Shown here: piece after piece, positions 5,424 through 10,998 of the stretch | Layout: each line of letters begins with the position of its first letter | Position numbering within the stretch: the first letter of the stretch is position 1 | NCBI GenBank assembly: GCA_003488445.1 | Contig: DNLO01000039.1 | Location: 1-10,998 of the forward strand | Reading direction: 5' to 3' | Source of the DNA: Lachnospiraceae bacterium | Lineage (GTDB): Bacteria; Bacillota; Clostridia; Lachnospirales; Lachnospiraceae | Length of the DNA stretch: 10,998 nt | Made by a program: the position numbers and the translations under genes | The notes under the pieces: generated by a model | Told to the model about the DNA's origin: nothing | Seen by the model: only the letters and a program-made list of their open reading frames with translations | Database searches by the model: none

Positions 5424-5669
5424 TCAGTCTTCGATCCTCTCCATTATTGCATCTATGAGCTCACCCACATCCTTGAGGCCCTGTACTTCCTTCATCACGA
5501 ACTTGAACCCGAACTCTTCCTCGATCTCATTCATGAGGCTCAGATGAGTGAGACTGTCCCAGCCGTCCACATCCGATGCTACCGTATCGTCCTCCAGGAC
5601 GAGCTCGTCATCATCAAAGATGTCACGCGCTATCTCGCATACCTTCTCCATCACTTCTTCTCTGGTCAT
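5424..5669 (-). CDS. Acyl carrier protein
   Basis: Stand-alone 81-aa carrier protein, strongly acidic, with the four-helix ACP pattern. The phosphopantetheine attachment serine is S39 in GWDSLTHL, the canonical DSL motif at the start of helix II. After modification by a phosphopantetheinyl transferase (none in this window) it would carry an acyl group as a thioester. Its ATGA overlap with the end of the FkbH-like gene, together with the strong GGAGGTG just upstream (5674-5680), indicates tight co-expression with that protein, its probable loading enzyme. No ketosynthase, malonyl transferase or other fatty-acid synthesis gene is nearby, so this is unlikely to be the housekeeping AcpP. By analogy with DltC it probably delivers an acyl group to the membrane acyltransferase. 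The acyl group, possibly glyceryl, is inferred. Confidence 0.93.
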   Translation of the reverse strand: MTREEVMEKVCEIARDIFDDDELVLEDDTVASDVDGWDSLTHLSLMNEIEEEFGFKFVMKEVQGLKDVGELIDAIMERIED

Positions 5670-7396
5670 TGTTCACCTCCATCGGTAATATATGTTTTCA
5701 GTATCTTAAAATCATCCGTCTTCAGCTCGTACTTTCCTTCGGATATCCTCTCAAATCCCATTCTGTCGTACATTTCCTTCACCATGGCATTCTTGGGTGT
5801 AGGTATATATTCTGCCTTCAGCAGTCTGCATCCGCTGTCCGCGGCAGTCCGTACCGTCTTGTTGATTATATACTCCTCCATGCCGCGCTTCAGCACTCTG
5901 CAGCTCATGAGCCAGGTGTCGATGAAGAACGTGTCCTCCGTCTCCCGTTTCATGATGACCACGGATACAAGCCCGTGATCTCCGAATCTGTCCTTCAGAG
6001 TGAAATAGAGGGTGACGTATCCGTCATCTTCTGCGATACGCGCTATATCGTCCTCTGTATATCTTACGGTCCTCAGATTGAACTGATTGGATCTCTGGGT
6101 GAGCTGGGCGATCCTTGGGTATCTCATGGGATCGAAGGGCCTTCCCTCTCCCTTCATCTCCAAGCTCTTAAGATAATCGTCTATAGATGCAAATGCAGTC
6201 TCGCTCTCTCTCCTCTTCGCCTCGGCCTGATACATTCCTGTCCTGTCGGCGTCCTCTTCGGAGTAGGAGGCCGTCTCGAAGTAGTTCATGCTCTGAAGGA
6301 AGGACAGATAGCAGGCAGGATCCTCAGGAAGATCCGGTACGGTTATCTCCGGTATCATGCTCTTTACAAGATCGCGCTCGAAGGGATTGTCATCCAGGAA
6401 GACTATCGAGTCCATCCCGATGTTCAGCGTCTGCCGGATATGCCTGATATTGGATGCCTTGTCCTCCCAGTTCGCGACAAACATGGCAAAGTCCGAAAGG
6501 CGAAGCACCATCTCCTCATGCTTTTCAAAGGGCTCTTTTGCCGCAGCCTCCTCATTCTTGCTGCACACCGCCAGCAGGATGCCTCTTTCCTTCAGCTGCT
6601 TCAGATAGAGCTGCAGATCCGTGAACACATGGCCTCTGCCCAGCTCGCCTATCTCTATGCCCGAGAGTCCGTCATCTCCTATGACACCTCCCCAGAGAGT
6701 GTTGTCCAGATCGCATATCACGCATTTGATGATACGACCGGACATGGCGCTTATCACATCATACACTTCCTTCGCCACATATCCCCAGGAGTTCAGATCC
6801 ACATTCACTTTCGCATTGTAGTAGAGCACGGGATCATAGAAAGCCTCCGTTCCGAGAGCGACCTGCACCGAGAGTATGTCCACCGGATATACACTCTTTC
6901 TCTTGCTCATCGCTTCCTGCAGCAGGCCGTTCAGTCTGCGTATCTGGTAGGTGAAGGAATCAGCCACCTTTATCCCGTAGTTGCCGAAGGCTGCATCCCT
7001 TATCTCCGTAAAGTTCATCTGGAGTATCCTGGCCTTGGAGTGCTGCTCTATGAGGTCCCAGTATCTTTCGATCCTTTTTTGTACCGAGTCCGCGAAGTCT
7101 TTCCTGCTGCCTGCCGGAAGCTCCATGAACTCTTCGTAGAGCTTCTCGCTGGCAAGATATATCAGCATCATATCCGGAGCGAAAGCATAGCTTTCCGACC
7201 CCTCGTCGAGAAGCTGTGCATCGATCTGATTGTAGTCGGCATCATATACCTTAAGGTTCATGCCCTGAAGATGGGCATAGCCGGATATGCACTGGGAAAG
7301 GAACTGTGTCGCGCAGGTGCCGAGCACTGCGAGTCTTATCTCCTTTCCTTCCACATCCTTCTTTGAGGCTTTGGTCAATTCCCTGAATCTGTACAT
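5666..7396 (-). CDS. FkbH-like HAD-IIIC/GNAT protein, probable glyceryl-ACP loading enzyme
   Basis: Members of the FkbH family take 1,3-bisphosphoglycerate, remove phosphate and load D-glyceryl onto a carrier-protein thiol. The protein is 576 aa from the chosen start. Domains: an N-terminal SGNH-like FkbH region (about 18-220, with LGTCAT at 25-30), a HAD-IIIC domain (about 222-360) and a GNAT-like C-terminus (about 420-565). HAD residues are complete: D229-L-D231-N-T233 followed by LWGGVIGDDG, VCSKN (S279, K280), and FLDDNPFER (D335, D336). FkbH signatures LTQRSNQFNLRT (432-443) and MSCRVLKRG (497-505) are present. C278 and C499 are candidates for the glyceryl-thioester cysteine. The start at 7396 has AAGGA 7 nt upstream and begins MYRFREL; an in-frame ATG at 7426 would add ten residues and overlap the previous gene. 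The stop overlaps the ACP start. Actual substrate unproven. Confidence 0.92.
   Translation of the reverse strand: MYRFRELTKASKKDVEGKEIRLAVLGTCATQFLSQCISGYAHLQGMNLKVYDADYNQIDAQLLDEGSESYAFAPDMMLIYLASEKLYEEFMELPAGSRKDFADSVQKRIERYWDLIEQHSKARILQMNFTEIRDAAFGNYGIKVADSFTYQIRRLNGLLQEAMSKRKSVYPVDILSVQVALGTEAFYDPVLYYNAKVNVDLNSWGYVAKEVYDVISAMSGRIIKCVICDLDNTLWGGVIGDDGLSGIEIGELGRGHVFTDLQLYLKQLKERGILLAVCSKNEEAAAKEPFEKHEEMVLRLSDFAMFVANWEDKASNIRHIRQTLNIGMDSIVFLDDNPFERDLVKSMIPEITVPDLPEDPACYLSFLQSMNYFETASYSEEDADRTGMYQAEAKRRESETAFASIDDYLKSLEMKGEGRPFDPMRYPRIAQLTQRSNQFNLRTVRYTEDDIARIAEDDGYVTLYFTLKDRFGDHGLVSVVIMKRETEDTFFIDTWLMSCRVLKRGMEEYIINKTVRTAADSGCRLLKAEYIPTPKNAMVKEMYDRMGFERISEGKYELKTDDFKILKTYITDGGEQ
5674..5680 (-). 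promoter_or_regulatory. Strong ribosome binding site of the ACP gene
   Basis: GGAGGTG on the minus strand, with the GGAGG core 6 nt before the ACP ATG and inside the last codons of the FkbH-like gene. It is among the strongest Shine-Dalgarno matches in the window, consistent with a carrier protein being made in excess over its loading enzyme. Confidence 0.65.
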
Positions 7397-7406
7397 CTTC
7401 CCGTCC

Positions 7407-8597
7407 TTATCTGCCGAATCCGGCATCTATATCCATCAGCCTGAGATCCAGCTCTCTTTCACCGTACTCTGATATTACTATATCAGGATGTACAAAGTCG
7501 ATAAAATCCTGGTCCACCCTGTAGCTCCATACAAAGGTCAGATCGGAAAAGCACTCCGCAAGCTCAGGCAGCATGCATACCCCTATCATGGAGTCGCCGA
7601 GTATGAGCACGCTCTTTTTGGGGGCATCATCATTGTGGAACATCGCACAGAGCGCCGGATTGTATACGTTCTTTGCGTACATCAGGCTCTGGAAGGCCTC
7701 GTACCTCTCACCGCTCTCCACCTGCACTGCCCTTATATCCACAGGCTTCCAGTCGATGAAGCTCTCCTCTGTCACCTTCCTGCCCGAAAGGCTGACAGGC
7801 CCCATCATGTCGGAAAGATCTCCCGCAAACGGGCCCTCCGTCGTATTAAAGCTCACCTTCACAGGCCCCTTCTCCAACATCCCCCATTCATTCAGTGACT
7901 CTATTATATCCCTGTAGGCGATGTTTCTCCCGTATGTGGTCCAGTGGGTGTCCGTCTTAAGATACACAGGCTTTCCCTCCGGGTTATCCTTTGCTTCTAT
8001 CAGGATCTTCTTGGGCCATATGACCTTCACATCGGTATTATCCCTCAGATAGTCACACAGCCTGTCTCCCACGGTCTCTCCCACGGTATGGGTGCTGCTC
8101 GCTATGTTCTCGGGATATATTGAGGGCTTGCCCGGAGCTATCATGAACACGTAGTCTATCCCCTGCTCCTTCAGTCCGTCGTTTATCCGCACGATCCTGT
8201 CTGCATACCCGGGTATCTTCTCAAGAAAATCTCCCGCAGACTCCACATCCATCTCAAGATTGCCCTCATCTGCCAGATAGAGAAAGCCCTCTTTCCCTAT
8301 CTCCACCCTGTCGGTCTTGGGCCTCTTCAGTACGCCGTAATTGATGGCACCGCTCAGGGTAAGATAAGCATCTCTCAGTCCCAGGTTGTCCTCAAACCAG
8401 CTCTTAAGATCCTCCCAAAGAGTATCCGACAGGCCGCCGTTCTCATCCTTCAGTGCGGGAAAAGACGCGAGATATCTGTTCTCGGTCTTTGACTCCCTGC
8501 CCTCTTCCCTGTTGAAGCAGATAAGGGAAGATGCTATGACTGCCGCAAATATGACCGCGATCAGTATTTCGTTGAAATTCTTCTTTATTGTCTCCAT
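7407..8597 (-). CDS. DHHW/AlgJ-like membrane-anchored SGNH-type acyltransferase component
   Basis: A 396-aa protein with one N-terminal hydrophobic segment (about 10-28) preceded by positive charges, so most of it should lie outside the membrane. The ENRYLASFPAL stretch (39-49) after the anchor is typical of DHHW/AlgJ/AlgX proteins. The catalytic signature is visible: KTDTHWT (D216, H218, W219) and LILGDSM with nucleophile S336, equivalent to the D-x-H plus Ser arrangement of AlgX/AlgJ. Such proteins work with an MBOAT partner to place acyl groups on exported polysaccharide. It lies 2 nt after the MBOAT stop, with no clear Shine-Dalgarno, which implies translational coupling. The role inferred here is transfer of an acyl group onto an unknown envelope polymer, like DltD or AlgJ. 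Esterase activity is an alternative. Confidence 0.9.
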   Translation of the reverse strand: METIKKNFNEILIAVIFAAVIASSLICFNREEGRESKTENRYLASFPALKDENGGLSDTLWEDLKSWFEDNLGLRDAYLTLSGAINYGVLKRPKTDRVEIGKEGFLYLADEGNLEMDVESAGDFLEKIPGYADRIVRINDGLKEQGIDYVFMIAPGKPSIYPENIASSTHTVGETVGDRLCDYLRDNTDVKVIWPKKILIEAKDNPEGKPVYLKTDTHWTTYGRNIAYRDIIESLNEWGMLEKGPVKVSFNTTEGPFAGDLSDMMGPVSLSGRKVTEESFIDWKPVDIRAVQVESGERYEAFQSLMYAKNVYNPALCAMFHNDDAPKKSVLILGDSMIGVCMLPELAECFSDLTFVWSYRVDQDFIDFVHPDIVISEYGERELDLRLMDIDAGFGR

Positions 8598-8599
8598 GG

Positions 8600-10045
8600 T
8601 CAGAATTGAAAATATACAAACGAACTGTAGGTCCCCGTATAGGCAAAAGCCACTGCGGTGATGAGCATCACTCCGTATATCAGGGGTGTCAGTGCCCGAA
8701 GCAGCCCCTCCCGCCCGTGCCTCCCAGCCAGAGCCCGGACAGCCGGTAACAGCGGGAAGGAGAACAGGATGCCTGCAGCCAGGGGCACCAGATCCTGCCT
8801 CAGATAAAATGCCGCCTCAGCCTGAAAAGCCGGAGCCCCGCCAAGTCCCAGCATGCTCTTCACATAGTCTGCATACTCCGCAAGGCTGTTGCACCTGAAC
8901 ATCAGCTGGCCGAAAACGACTGCAACCGCTGTATATACATGGGCTGATACCATGCTCCGGAGTGTCTTCTCTTTTTTCTTTATCCCGAGCTTTTTCCTTT
9001 TTGCCTTCTCATGGTCTGCCAGCAGTCTCTCTCCCGCTATCAGCACATAGTAATACAGTCCGTATACTATGGTCTTCGCTCCCACACCGTGCCACGCTCC
9101 GGAGAAGAGCCATACACCTAAAGATGCCAGCAGGTAGCAGGCGATCTTCGTGAGCTTCCTCGACTGGCAGGCACGGAATATGGGTATGTAGATATAGTTC
9201 TTCATCCACTGTCCCAGTGTCATATGCCATCTGTTCCAGAACTCAGTCACCGAGGAAGACATGTACGGATAGTCGAAATTCTCCGGAAGGCTGAACCCGA
9301 AGAGGCAGCCCAGACCTATGGCGATATCCGTATATCCCATGAAGTCATAGTACAGCTGTATCAGAAATCCCAAAAGAGCCAGCCAGGCAAAGACAGCTCC
9401 TCTCTTAGAAGCATCCATCCCGAAGGCGGTATTGATCATGGAAAGCAGAGTGTCGGCTATCACGAGCTTCTTAAAAAGACCCGCTATGATCCTCTTTATC
9501 CCCGAGAGAAAATGCGTAAGGTCTGTCTTCCTGTCTCCGAGAGAAGGTACAAACTCTGCACATCGGCTTATGGGTCCCATGGATATCTGAGGAAAGAAGG
9601 AGATATAGAGTGCCGTATCAAAGAGGTCCATGTGAGCCGGGAGCATATCCCAATACACATCCAGACAGTATGATACCGTCCTGAAGGTATAGAACGACAG
9701 GCCCAGCGGCAGGGTCACATTGGCCGCTCCGTTCCTGAACATCATATATTTGTAATAGAAAAGGATCCCGAAATTGAATACCAGTGAACCGGTGAGCAGG
9801 AACATGGCAAGGGCCTTCTTCTCCCTTTTGGATGCTATCAGCTCTCCCGTGATATAGTTGACCGCTATGCTGGCAATAAGGAGCAGCACCCTGTCAGGCT
9901 CTCCCGCGGCATAGAATATCACAGATGCCGCAAGCAGCACCATGTCTGCCGCCCTGCCTCTGTGACCCGTAAGGTACAGGGCGTAGTATACCGCTACCGT
10001 AAGCGGCAGGAATATGAAGATAAACTCAAGTGATGTAAAAGCCAT
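8600..10045 (-). CDS. MBOAT-family membrane O-acyltransferase (AlgI/DltB-like)
   Basis: Polytopic membrane protein, 481 aa with around ten hydrophobic segments. MBOAT proteins of this type take an acyl group from a cytoplasmic donor and pass it through the membrane for polymer acylation. Conserved features: TLPLGLSFYTFRTVSY (111-126), FFPQISMGPISR (150-161), QLYYDFMGYTDIAIG (230-244), EFWNRWHMTLGQW (268-280, with H274) and FSGAWHG with the catalytic-type H319. The last six residues, F-V-Y-F-Q-F (476-481), follow a final hydrophobic helix and resemble the C-terminal tyrosine motif of DltX. A lysine-rich cytoplasmic-type loop lies at about 346-361. The start at 10045 is 1 nt after the recG stop, with no evident Shine-Dalgarno, so coupled translation is likely. 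The next genes encode its probable partners (DHHW, FkbH-like, ACP). Confidence 0.93.
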   Translation of the reverse strand: MAFTSLEFIFIFLPLTVAVYYALYLTGHRGRAADMVLLAASVIFYAAGEPDRVLLLIASIAVNYITGELIASKREKKALAMFLLTGSLVFNFGILFYYKYMMFRNGAANVTLPLGLSFYTFRTVSYCLDVYWDMLPAHMDLFDTALYISFFPQISMGPISRCAEFVPSLGDRKTDLTHFLSGIKRIIAGLFKKLVIADTLLSMINTAFGMDASKRGAVFAWLALLGFLIQLYYDFMGYTDIAIGLGCLFGFSLPENFDYPYMSSSVTEFWNRWHMTLGQWMKNYIYIPIFRACQSRKLTKIACYLLASLGVWLFSGAWHGVGAKTIVYGLYYYVLIAGERLLADHEKAKRKKLGIKKKEKTLRSMVSAHVYTAVAVVFGQLMFRCNSLAEYADYVKSMLGLGGAPAFQAEAAFYLRQDLVPLAAGILFSFPLLPAVRALAGRHGREGLLRALTPLIYGVMLITAVAFAYTGTYSSFVYFQF

Positions 10046-10046
10046 A

Positions 10047-10998
10047 TTACAATACTACGCTGTCTGCAGAACCTTCCTCCGTATCGTACGCATGCTCATT
10101 CGCATATTCCGAAGCCATAGCCAGTATGTCGGCATCCGTATAGATGTCAGCCACCCTGAAGCCCAGCTCCCCCGACTGTCTCAGCCCGAATATATCTCCC
10201 GGTCCTCTCAGCTTCAGATCCTCCGATGCGATCTCAAAGCCGTCATTCGTCTTTCTTAATATGCCAAGTCTCTCCGACATCTCCCTGCCCTTCGAGGTGT
10301 CCACAAAGATGCAGTAGCTCTGTGCAGCTCCGCGCCCGATGCGTCCTCTCAGCTGGTGCAGCTGGGACAGCCCGTAATGGTCGGCATTCTCTATCATCAT
10401 CACCGTTGCGTTGGGCACATCCACTCCCACCTCCACTACCGTCGTGGAGACAAGGACATCAGTATCTCCGGATGCGAAAAGATTCATGACATTGTTCTTT
10501 TCCGCATTCTTCATCCTGCCGTGGAGTACACCGACCCTCACTTCGCTGCCCCATATCTCCCGAAGCTTCTGCGCGTATTCCAGGGTGTTCTCACCAAAGT
10601 CGTCCTCTCCGGGCTCTATCAGCGGACATATGACATAGGCCTGATGTCCCGCCTTTACTTCTTTACGGATGAAATTATACGCTTTTTTTCGATAGTCCGT
10701 ATCCACTACCGCATTCTTCACGGGAAGCCTCTGTGCGGGCTTGTCCTTCATCACGGATATATCCAGGTCTCCGTACAGTATGATCGCAAGAGTACGCGGG
10801 ATAGGTGTGGCGCTCATGACGAGTATATGGGGAGATCTGTCTCCTGCCTTATCCGTAAGAGACTTTCTCTGTCTCACACCGAACCTGTGCTGCTCGTCCG
10901 TAACGACGAGAGCCAGATCTCTGTATTCCACGAGCTCCGTGATCAGAGCATGTGTCCCTATAACGATATCCGCACTGCCGTCCGCTATGCTCTGTCTT
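10047..10998 (-). CDS. recG: ATP-dependent DNA helicase RecG, C-terminal part (5' end beyond window)
   Basis: Superfamily 2 helicase that reverses stalled forks and processes branched DNA. Only the last 316 residues are visible; the reading frame stays open to the right edge, so this is truncation by the window, not a short gene starting at an internal codon. In the fragment: DEQH box at 34-37 preceded by VIGTHAL (motif Ic region), SATPIPRTL (62-70, motif III), LHGRM (motif IV region), [15 protein letters not shown] (183-197, motif V) and QLRGRIGR (215-222, motif VI). The RecG-specific C-terminal stretch [17 protein letters not shown] and [13 protein letters not shown] (about 252-284) separates it from Mfd and PriA. 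The stop is TAA at 10047-10049, one base before the MBOAT ATG, so the acylation genes probably share its transcript. Confidence 0.97.

Follow-up and report, generated by a model that had tools for sequence, protein, structure and literature searches.

A contig of 10,998 nucleotides from a Lachnospiraceae bacterium (DNLO01000039.1 of assembly GCA_003488445.1; we refer to the whole of this stretch as the window) contains a run of four genes that we examine here as a candidate envelope-acylation cassette. The source assembly, from a gut or rumen bacterium, is 1.5 Mb in size and 61.8% complete, and the G+C content of the window is 50-53% in 1-kb steps. The genes of the window are on the minus strand in the order recG, MBOAT, SGNH, FkbH, acyl carrier protein (ACP), M24 aminopeptidase, VOC, gltX and a UvrD/PcrA-like helicase. 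All four cassette genes are intact, and they encode the following proteins (lengths in amino acids, aa):

8600..10045 (-), MBOAT acyltransferase, 481 aa; PF03062, 81 bits
7407..8597 (-), SGNH O-acyltransferase (AlgX/AlgJ/PatB1-type), 396 aa; ALGX PF16822, 54.6 bits
5666..7426 (-), FkbH-type loader, 586 aa; FkbH_N, 210.8 bits; TIGR01686, 308.9 bits
5424..5669 (-), stand-alone acyl carrier protein, 81 aa; PP-binding PF00550, 25.2 bits

The genes are closely packed, with 1 nt between recG and MBOAT, 2 nt between MBOAT and SGNH, and overlaps of 20 nt between SGNH and FkbH and of 4 nt between FkbH and ACP; downstream, the M24 aminopeptidase gene follows ACP after 2 nt and the VOC gene begins 1 nt beyond that. 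A first-pass annotation, made from the sequence alone, had described four consecutive and nearly gapless genes of these families at 5424..10045, with key residues intact in each protein and no polyketide synthase (PKS), adenylation or fatty-acid gene nearby. These junctions and the profile matches (PF03062, PF16822, TIGR01686 and PF00550) agree with that description, as do the key residues on alignment and motif inspection. Profile scans of the nine window proteins likewise found neither a ketosynthase nor an adenylation enzyme nor any gene for fatty-acid synthesis, and among the same genes there is no AMP-binding protein, FabH-like tetronate enzyme or PKS, glycosyltransferase or sugar gene. 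The annotation had overlooked a shuttle hexapeptide at the C-terminus of the MBOAT protein, and the VOC gene.

The loader and export halves of the cassette

The loader is assigned to the FkbH family by its TIGR01686 score (308.9 bits against a cut-off of 146.65) and its HAD motif residues. It is composed of an SGNH-fold N domain (residues ~27-231), a HAD-IIIC domain (~232-388), and a GNAT-fold domain (~424-572) with a conserved Cys509. Residues D239, D241, K323, D345 and D346 are present in 72/72 aligned FkbH sequences, and C509 in 97% of the 72. The attachment serine of the ACP, S39, lies within GWDSLTH and is kept in 58/58 aligned ACPs, nearly all of which are from FkbH loci. The cassette therefore has, as the Dlt pathway does, a carrier with a phosphopantetheine serine (PP-binding, S39), which does not imply that the carrier is DltC. 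The available part of PMC7489565 presents FkbH with an ACP as a likely maker of glyceryl-ACP, the textbook role of FkbH in polyketide pathways.

The MBOAT protein has its catalytic His319 in GAWHG and ends in a fused acyl-shuttle motif, FVYFQF (residues 476-481), that includes Tyr478. It is related to the solved DltB structures 8jem and 6bug, and scores 175.7 bits with the DltB model TIGR04091, short of the cut-off of 375. All eight distinct MBOATs of complete four-gene loci end in exactly FxYxxF, as does one from a locus truncated by its contig (L016; loci are numbered with L and genomes with G), and the motif is present in 35/43 examined MBOATs of the same branch. As far as the accessible text of PMC12148441 goes, the Tyr of this motif has been shown to be acetylated in PatA, and MBOAT-SGNH pairs other than Dlt have no carrier, evidently because acyl-CoA is used.

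The SGNH protein has a predicted N-terminal helix (residues 8-26). Among 46 aligned sequences H218 and S336 are invariant and D216 is found in at least 90%, and these three residues are the probable triad. The predicted model is closest to structures of PatB1, DHHW and AlgJ, and AlgX is also matched; DltD is not among the structural matches listed, which does not exclude a family that was not listed. The earlier description of this protein as DHHW/AlgJ-like is right for the model, but the DHHW Pfam model gives no match with the window protein and ALGX matches instead. The export half is of the Pat/Alg type, with a catalytic His and fused FxYxxF in the MBOAT protein and an AlgJ/PatB1 fold with Asp-His-Ser residues in its SGNH partner. 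Pat/Alg systems are also expected to have no carrier protein, and here a carrier gene is part of the same run and overlaps the loader gene. The term Dlt-like is half right: an FkbH loader and an ACP are coupled to an MBOAT-SGNH export pair, but on the tests applied MBOAT is not DltB, and SGNH is probably not DltD. CotH-kinase-type genes adjoin some cassette-related MBOAT-SGNH pairs (L108:9083-10903, L022:9543-11933).

Conservation, recurrence and gene neighbourhoods

Using the FkbH protein to search genome contigs we found 21 loci, and most FkbH relatives located in named genome contigs belong to Lachnospiraceae. Nine loci are at the same recG/M24 position by synteny (L003-L008, L016, L020 and L023), of which L004, L005, L006 and L007 have all four cassette genes. 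Two others hold what the contig allows (MBOAT, SGNH and FkbH in L016; the SGNH end, FkbH and ACP in L023), and the L003 contig begins inside FkbH. The cassette is thus conserved in Lachnospiraceae between recG and the M24 peptidase gene, and the genomes named AC3007 and KH1P17 are among its carriers. The genes flanking it are:

10047..10997 (-), 3' part of recG; NCBIfam RecG models, up to 469.5 bits; synteny in L004, L005, L007, L008, L016 and L020
3646..5421 (-), M24 aminopeptidase P-type gene; PF00557, 158.4 bits; synteny in L003-L008, L020 and L023
3249..3644 (-), VOC protein resembling methylmalonyl-CoA epimerase, a possible fifth component, 131 aa; TIGR03081, 63.5 bits, below the cut-off of 114.95

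recG is a conserved upstream neighbour that stands outside the pathway, and the M24 gene is its conserved downstream counterpart, probably outside the pathway too. The window's own genome has a second FkbH gene on a 3.1-kb contig (L068, G000 contig 136), adjoined by an SDR-like gene on the opposite strand.

All four genes also occur together at three other loci: L022, where their neighbours are a methyltransferase and an ABC transporter whose C-terminal domain is of the Wzt type; L059, in the order FkbH-ACP-MBOAT-SGNH; and L122, in another family, where the SGNH partner is a 678-residue DHHW protein. In a maximum-likelihood tree of 72 FkbH sequences (83 minus 4 short, 2 over-long and 5 duplicates) these three fall outside the recG clade, which has a support of 100/99. 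The four-gene label, which we also gave to L003, L016 and L023/L111 although contig ends cut these loci short, changes five times on this tree, and all five changes are forced by well-supported branches (shuffled mean 10.5), a pattern expected from repeated assembly of the four genes. Four gains and one loss are compatible with this history, and fewer gains with more losses are also possible. Some loci represent the same genome (L063 = L113 = L007; L066 = L010; L111 = L023), and the joining of L114 with L115, both on long branches, may be false. Conserved linkage of the four families without PKS genes had been set beforehand as a check, and it is found at the recG locus and at three further positions in the FkbH tree, with a ketosynthase at 1/45 family loci.

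FkbH scores above the cut-off in 44/200 genomes drawn from the family and in 14/398 drawn from the phylum, the window's own genome being counted in both. Neighbours on the same strand and within 6 kb were counted for 44 of the 45 fetched family-draw loci, with L071 outside the count: an ACP gene accompanies FkbH at 36 (directly adjacent at 31), MBOAT at 20, VOC at 11 and a MaoC-like gene at 6. Neighbour families were scanned as sets for the 222 neighbours of 100-700 aa, and singly for 13 of the 20 longer open reading frames (>700 aa). MBOAT is the top Pfam family upstream (10/113) and joint top with Glyoxalase_4 downstream (9/109); glycosyltransferases, NeuB, cytidylyltransferases and sugar aminotransferases also recur, and ketoacyl synthase is outside the 25 commonest families of both the upstream and the downstream sets. 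These neighbours place FkbH in Lachnospiraceae mostly in surface-glycan-like settings. The one ketosynthase seen among the 45 loci is fused to FkbH (L071, G081 contig 69); the 12 other longer neighbours include a capsule-synthesis/acyltransferase protein, a fucosyltransferase, a YfhO protein and unrelated ones, with no ketosynthase among them. In the phylum draw, 3/13 FkbH loci (L118, L123 and L124, of which two share a genome) contain non-ribosomal peptide synthetase (NRPS) or PKS proteins. These three, which are in other Bacillota families, and L071 are true natural-product uses of FkbH.

Two further gene sets recur with FkbH. In one, FkbH, mostly with ACP, is followed by GcvH, lipoamide dehydrogenase, lipoate ligase, two 2-hydroxyglutaryl-CoA-dehydratase subunits and a BadF/HgdC-type activator (L013:4817-12029; L066, which is the L010 genome; and L119, in another family and with a different gene order), some genes being missing from view in some loci. 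Judged from first residues, L009, L011, L014, L015 and L021 have this set too, and the set resembles a radical dehydratase whose substrate would be a thioester of glyceryl or lactyl type. In the other, a second tailoring set, FkbH-ACP is followed by a MaoC-like dehydratase, mostly with an SDR gene and often in sugar-pathway settings (L012, L017, L018, L070, L087, L089, L090, L098 and L102). Near another FkbH locus, a single protein combines acyltransferase-3, PGA_cap and GDSL lipase domains (L058:3071-6001), which may represent a different export-side acylation design.

The VOC gene follows the M24 aminopeptidase gene in L003 and is absent from all six relatives with a visible M24-gltX junction (L004, L006, L007, L008, L020 and L023). 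Relatives scoring at least 100 bits, a line set after the list had been seen, are present in 16/199 other family-draw genomes, and all 16 have FkbH, which occurs in 43/199 (Fisher p 1.7e-12, with related genomes treated as independent and kinship ignored); in 10 of the 16 the VOC gene is within 3.5 kb of FkbH. With relatives at any E up to 1e-3 included, 24/34 have FkbH (p 6e-12). This co-occurrence disfavours a housekeeping methylmalonyl-CoA epimerase, and the VOC protein may instead epimerise the acyl group and set the C2 configuration of glyceryl on the ACP. In L128 a relative (92 bits) comes after an ACP gene, in L133 another adjoins an MBOAT gene, and that of L130 is in a sugar-pathway locus. 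A further one lies directly behind gap-pgk-tpi (GAPDH, PGK, TPI) in the same-genus genome G073 (L127, contig 5); 1,3-bisphosphoglycerate is the product of GAPDH, the substrate of PGK and the expected substrate of FkbH. Because of this position a glyoxalase role for triose by-products is kept as an alternative.

Proposed mechanism and rival explanations

We consider it reasonably probable that the cassette is an envelope-acylation machine fed from glycolysis, in which a glyceryl group passes by way of FkbH, the ACP, Tyr478 of MBOAT and Ser336 of the SGNH protein to an envelope polymer. The observations behind this proposal are the gene architecture, the intact motifs, the folds, and the conserved and recurrent linkage; from these we infer each of the chemical steps, as well as which acyl group is carried and which polymer accepts it. 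FkbH would take the glyceryl group of 1,3-bisphosphoglycerate, its HAD domain removing the phosphate, and hand it, probably via Cys509 in its GNAT-fold region, to the phosphopantetheine carried on Ser39 of the ACP. MBOAT would receive the group from the carrier on the cytoplasmic side and move it outside to Tyr478 of the C-terminal hexapeptide, from which the SGNH protein would take it onto Ser336 and then esterify a cell-surface glycopolymer. A possible role of the VOC enzyme is to fix the configuration at C2 of this glyceryl unit.

Several observations weigh against this proposal. Two of the nine loci at the recG position, L008 and L020, read recG-FkbH-ACP-M24, with MBOAT and SGNH missing between recG and FkbH. 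A search of the contigs of the L008 assembly found no SGNH match; in the L020 genome, MBOAT and SGNH relatives (55% and 59% identity) are located elsewhere, adjoining a CotH-type gene, and near them are a second MBOAT gene and an 85-residue ACP-like gene (PP-binding 16 bits, below the cut-off). SGNH relatives are commoner than FkbH in the family draw (97/200 vs 44/200 genomes), and five SGNH loci fetched irrespective of FkbH (L103-L107) have MBOAT and no FkbH. Close SGNH relatives are scarce, the best in the 199 other family-draw genomes being in G073 (55%) and the next in G122 (29%). The shuttle motif is general in its MBOAT branch, so that the motif alone is no argument for a carrier donor. 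Finally, the window has no glycopolymer genes that could name the acceptor.

Some of these observations are also consistent with two unrelated halves, the MBOAT-SGNH pair being an O-acetyltransferase of the ordinary kind, driven by acetyl-CoA, and FkbH-ACP supplying a glyceryl donor in the cytoplasm for another purpose, for example for a sugar that is N- or O-acylated before export. We think this unlikely, even though family members have the pair without FkbH (L103-L107), FkbH-ACP lacks an adjoining pair in L008 and L020, and many FkbH-ACP loci include sugar-pathway genes. Glycerate-derived acyl groups on sugars are moreover known from Campylobacter jejuni flagellar glycans (PMC3068675, in the part available), and the locus concerned contains an fkbH-domain gene (PMC7099621, likewise). 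Against two halves stand the repeated co-assembly of the four genes, the overlap of reading frames across the SGNH-FkbH-ACP junctions, and the lack of any glycosyltransferase or sugar gene among the genes of the window. It is also rather improbable that the same machine exports a different acyl group, with glyceryl-ACP first epimerised, reduced, dehydrated or methylated to give, for example, an L-glyceryl, lactyl or 3-hydroxypropionyl-like group. VOC relatives do track FkbH, and MaoC and SDR genes or the 2-hydroxyacyl dehydratase set are present at other FkbH-ACP loci, but VOC is the sole modifying enzyme by the cassette, and among the syntenic relatives it is found in L003 and missing from 6/6 with a visible M24-gltX junction.

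A part in a polyketide or tetronate pathway with its synthase elsewhere would accord with the textbook role of FkbH (PMC7489565, available part), with the ketosynthase fusion of L071 and with the 3/13 phylum-draw FkbH loci that have NRPS or PKS proteins. We nonetheless regard it as highly improbable, since there is no ketosynthase in the window, among the 25 commonest families of the 222 neighbours scanned or in the 12 longer neighbours scanned besides L071, and pathways of this kind are not known to include an MBOAT-SGNH pair. No more credible is a divergent D-alanylation (Dlt) system: the division of labour is identical and MBOAT is related to DltB, but the window has no adenylation enzyme, the DltB cut-off is missed, the shuttle motif is fused, and separate DltA-like genes are beside MBOAT genes in the same genomes.

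We therefore return to the glyceryl-export proposal. If it is correct, FkbH gains a role outside natural products, surface chemistry is tied directly to a glycolytic intermediate, and base-labile glycerate (+88 Da) is predicted as an envelope substituent in rumen and gut Lachnospiraceae, for which, to our knowledge, little envelope chemistry is known. A stronger version, which we put forward tentatively and think doubtful on balance, is that the VOC epimerase resets C2 on the carrier and that a glyceryl/L-glyceryl ester is written by a Pat-type pair switched from a CoA to a carrier donor. In that case gut and rumen Clostridia would have, in FkbH-ACP modules combined with exchangeable tailoring sets, a general source of three-carbon acyl groups with which to decorate surface glycans. 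Gellan carries L-glyceryl; in the open-access literature we found nothing useful on gellan glyceryl-transferase genes, and nothing on glyceryl esters of the cassette kind or on the dehydratase cluster.

Comparison with known systems

With Dlt (DltA, DltB, DltC, DltD and DltX) the cassette shares the division of labour between loader, carrier, MBOAT and SGNH proteins and, by our proposal, an acyl thioester on the carrier as donor. It differs in that its loader is an FkbH protein and not an adenylation enzyme, its MBOAT falls below the DltB cut-off and has its own shuttle motif, and its SGNH model is nearest PatB1/DHHW/AlgJ. There is no room for a separate DltX microprotein between the cassette genes, which are 2 nt apart or overlap, and the motif is fused to MBOAT instead. 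The first-pass annotation had FkbH standing in for DltA. However, DltA-like adenylation proteins of ~225-300 bits (cut-off 559.85, reached in 0/12 genomes searched) are beside MBOAT genes in several cassette-bearing genomes, and in G201 such a gene is on the same contig as the cassette. Since these genes are separate and beside other MBOAT genes, we reject replacement of DltA inside one operon, and take the cassette to be a parallel system. Two other Dlt-like loci pair an MBOAT gene with an ornithine/arginine-decarboxylase-type gene of the pyridoxal phosphate-dependent kind, together with a DltA-like adenylation enzyme in L109 (MBOAT tail LIYAQF) and an ACP-like gene in L108 (FMYAAF); these possibly aminoacylate with another amino acid or amine.

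The loader half resembles the FkbH + ACP glyceryl-ACP modules of polyketide and tetronate pathways (e.g. Mad7/Mad8), which similarly consist of an FkbH-like protein and a stand-alone ACP, but the window has no synthase and the product presumably goes to a membrane acyltransferase. The suomilide/banyaside (bsl) cluster likewise combines an MBOAT with an FkbH-like domain; there, according to the available part of PMC13122637, glycerate enters an NRPS through the FkbH domain, the proposed task of the MBOAT is to acylate a hexose in the completed peptide, and no envelope role is involved. The flagellar glycan locus of C. jejuni similarly combines an fkbH-domain gene (cj1302) with a surface glycan that bears an acyl group derived from glycerate, but the portions available name no MBOAT-SGNH pair, and do not expressly tie the dimethylglyceric acid-bearing pseudaminic acid to cj1302. 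In the open-access literature we found no description of an FkbH-fed MBOAT-SGNH cassette; FkbH and MBOAT appear together in a natural-product context only, and papers on FkbH with glyceryl or bisphosphoglycerate concern natural products by title, except for one Cannabis association study.

The export half resembles PatA-PatB, PatA1-PatB1 and AlgI-AlgJ/X in its MBOAT catalytic His with a fused C-terminal FxYxxF and in an SGNH partner of PatB1/AlgJ fold. The difference is that the cassette operon includes a dedicated carrier and loader, whereas non-Dlt pairs are carrier-free according to the accessible text of PMC12148441. The parts of the cassette are known, and what seems to be new is their combination, in which a Pat/Alg export pair is joined by a donor module unreported for such pairs in the literature searched. 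If the proposed mechanism is correct, it would break the division that has been stated between Dlt acylation, fed by a carrier, and Pat/Alg acylation, fed by CoA.

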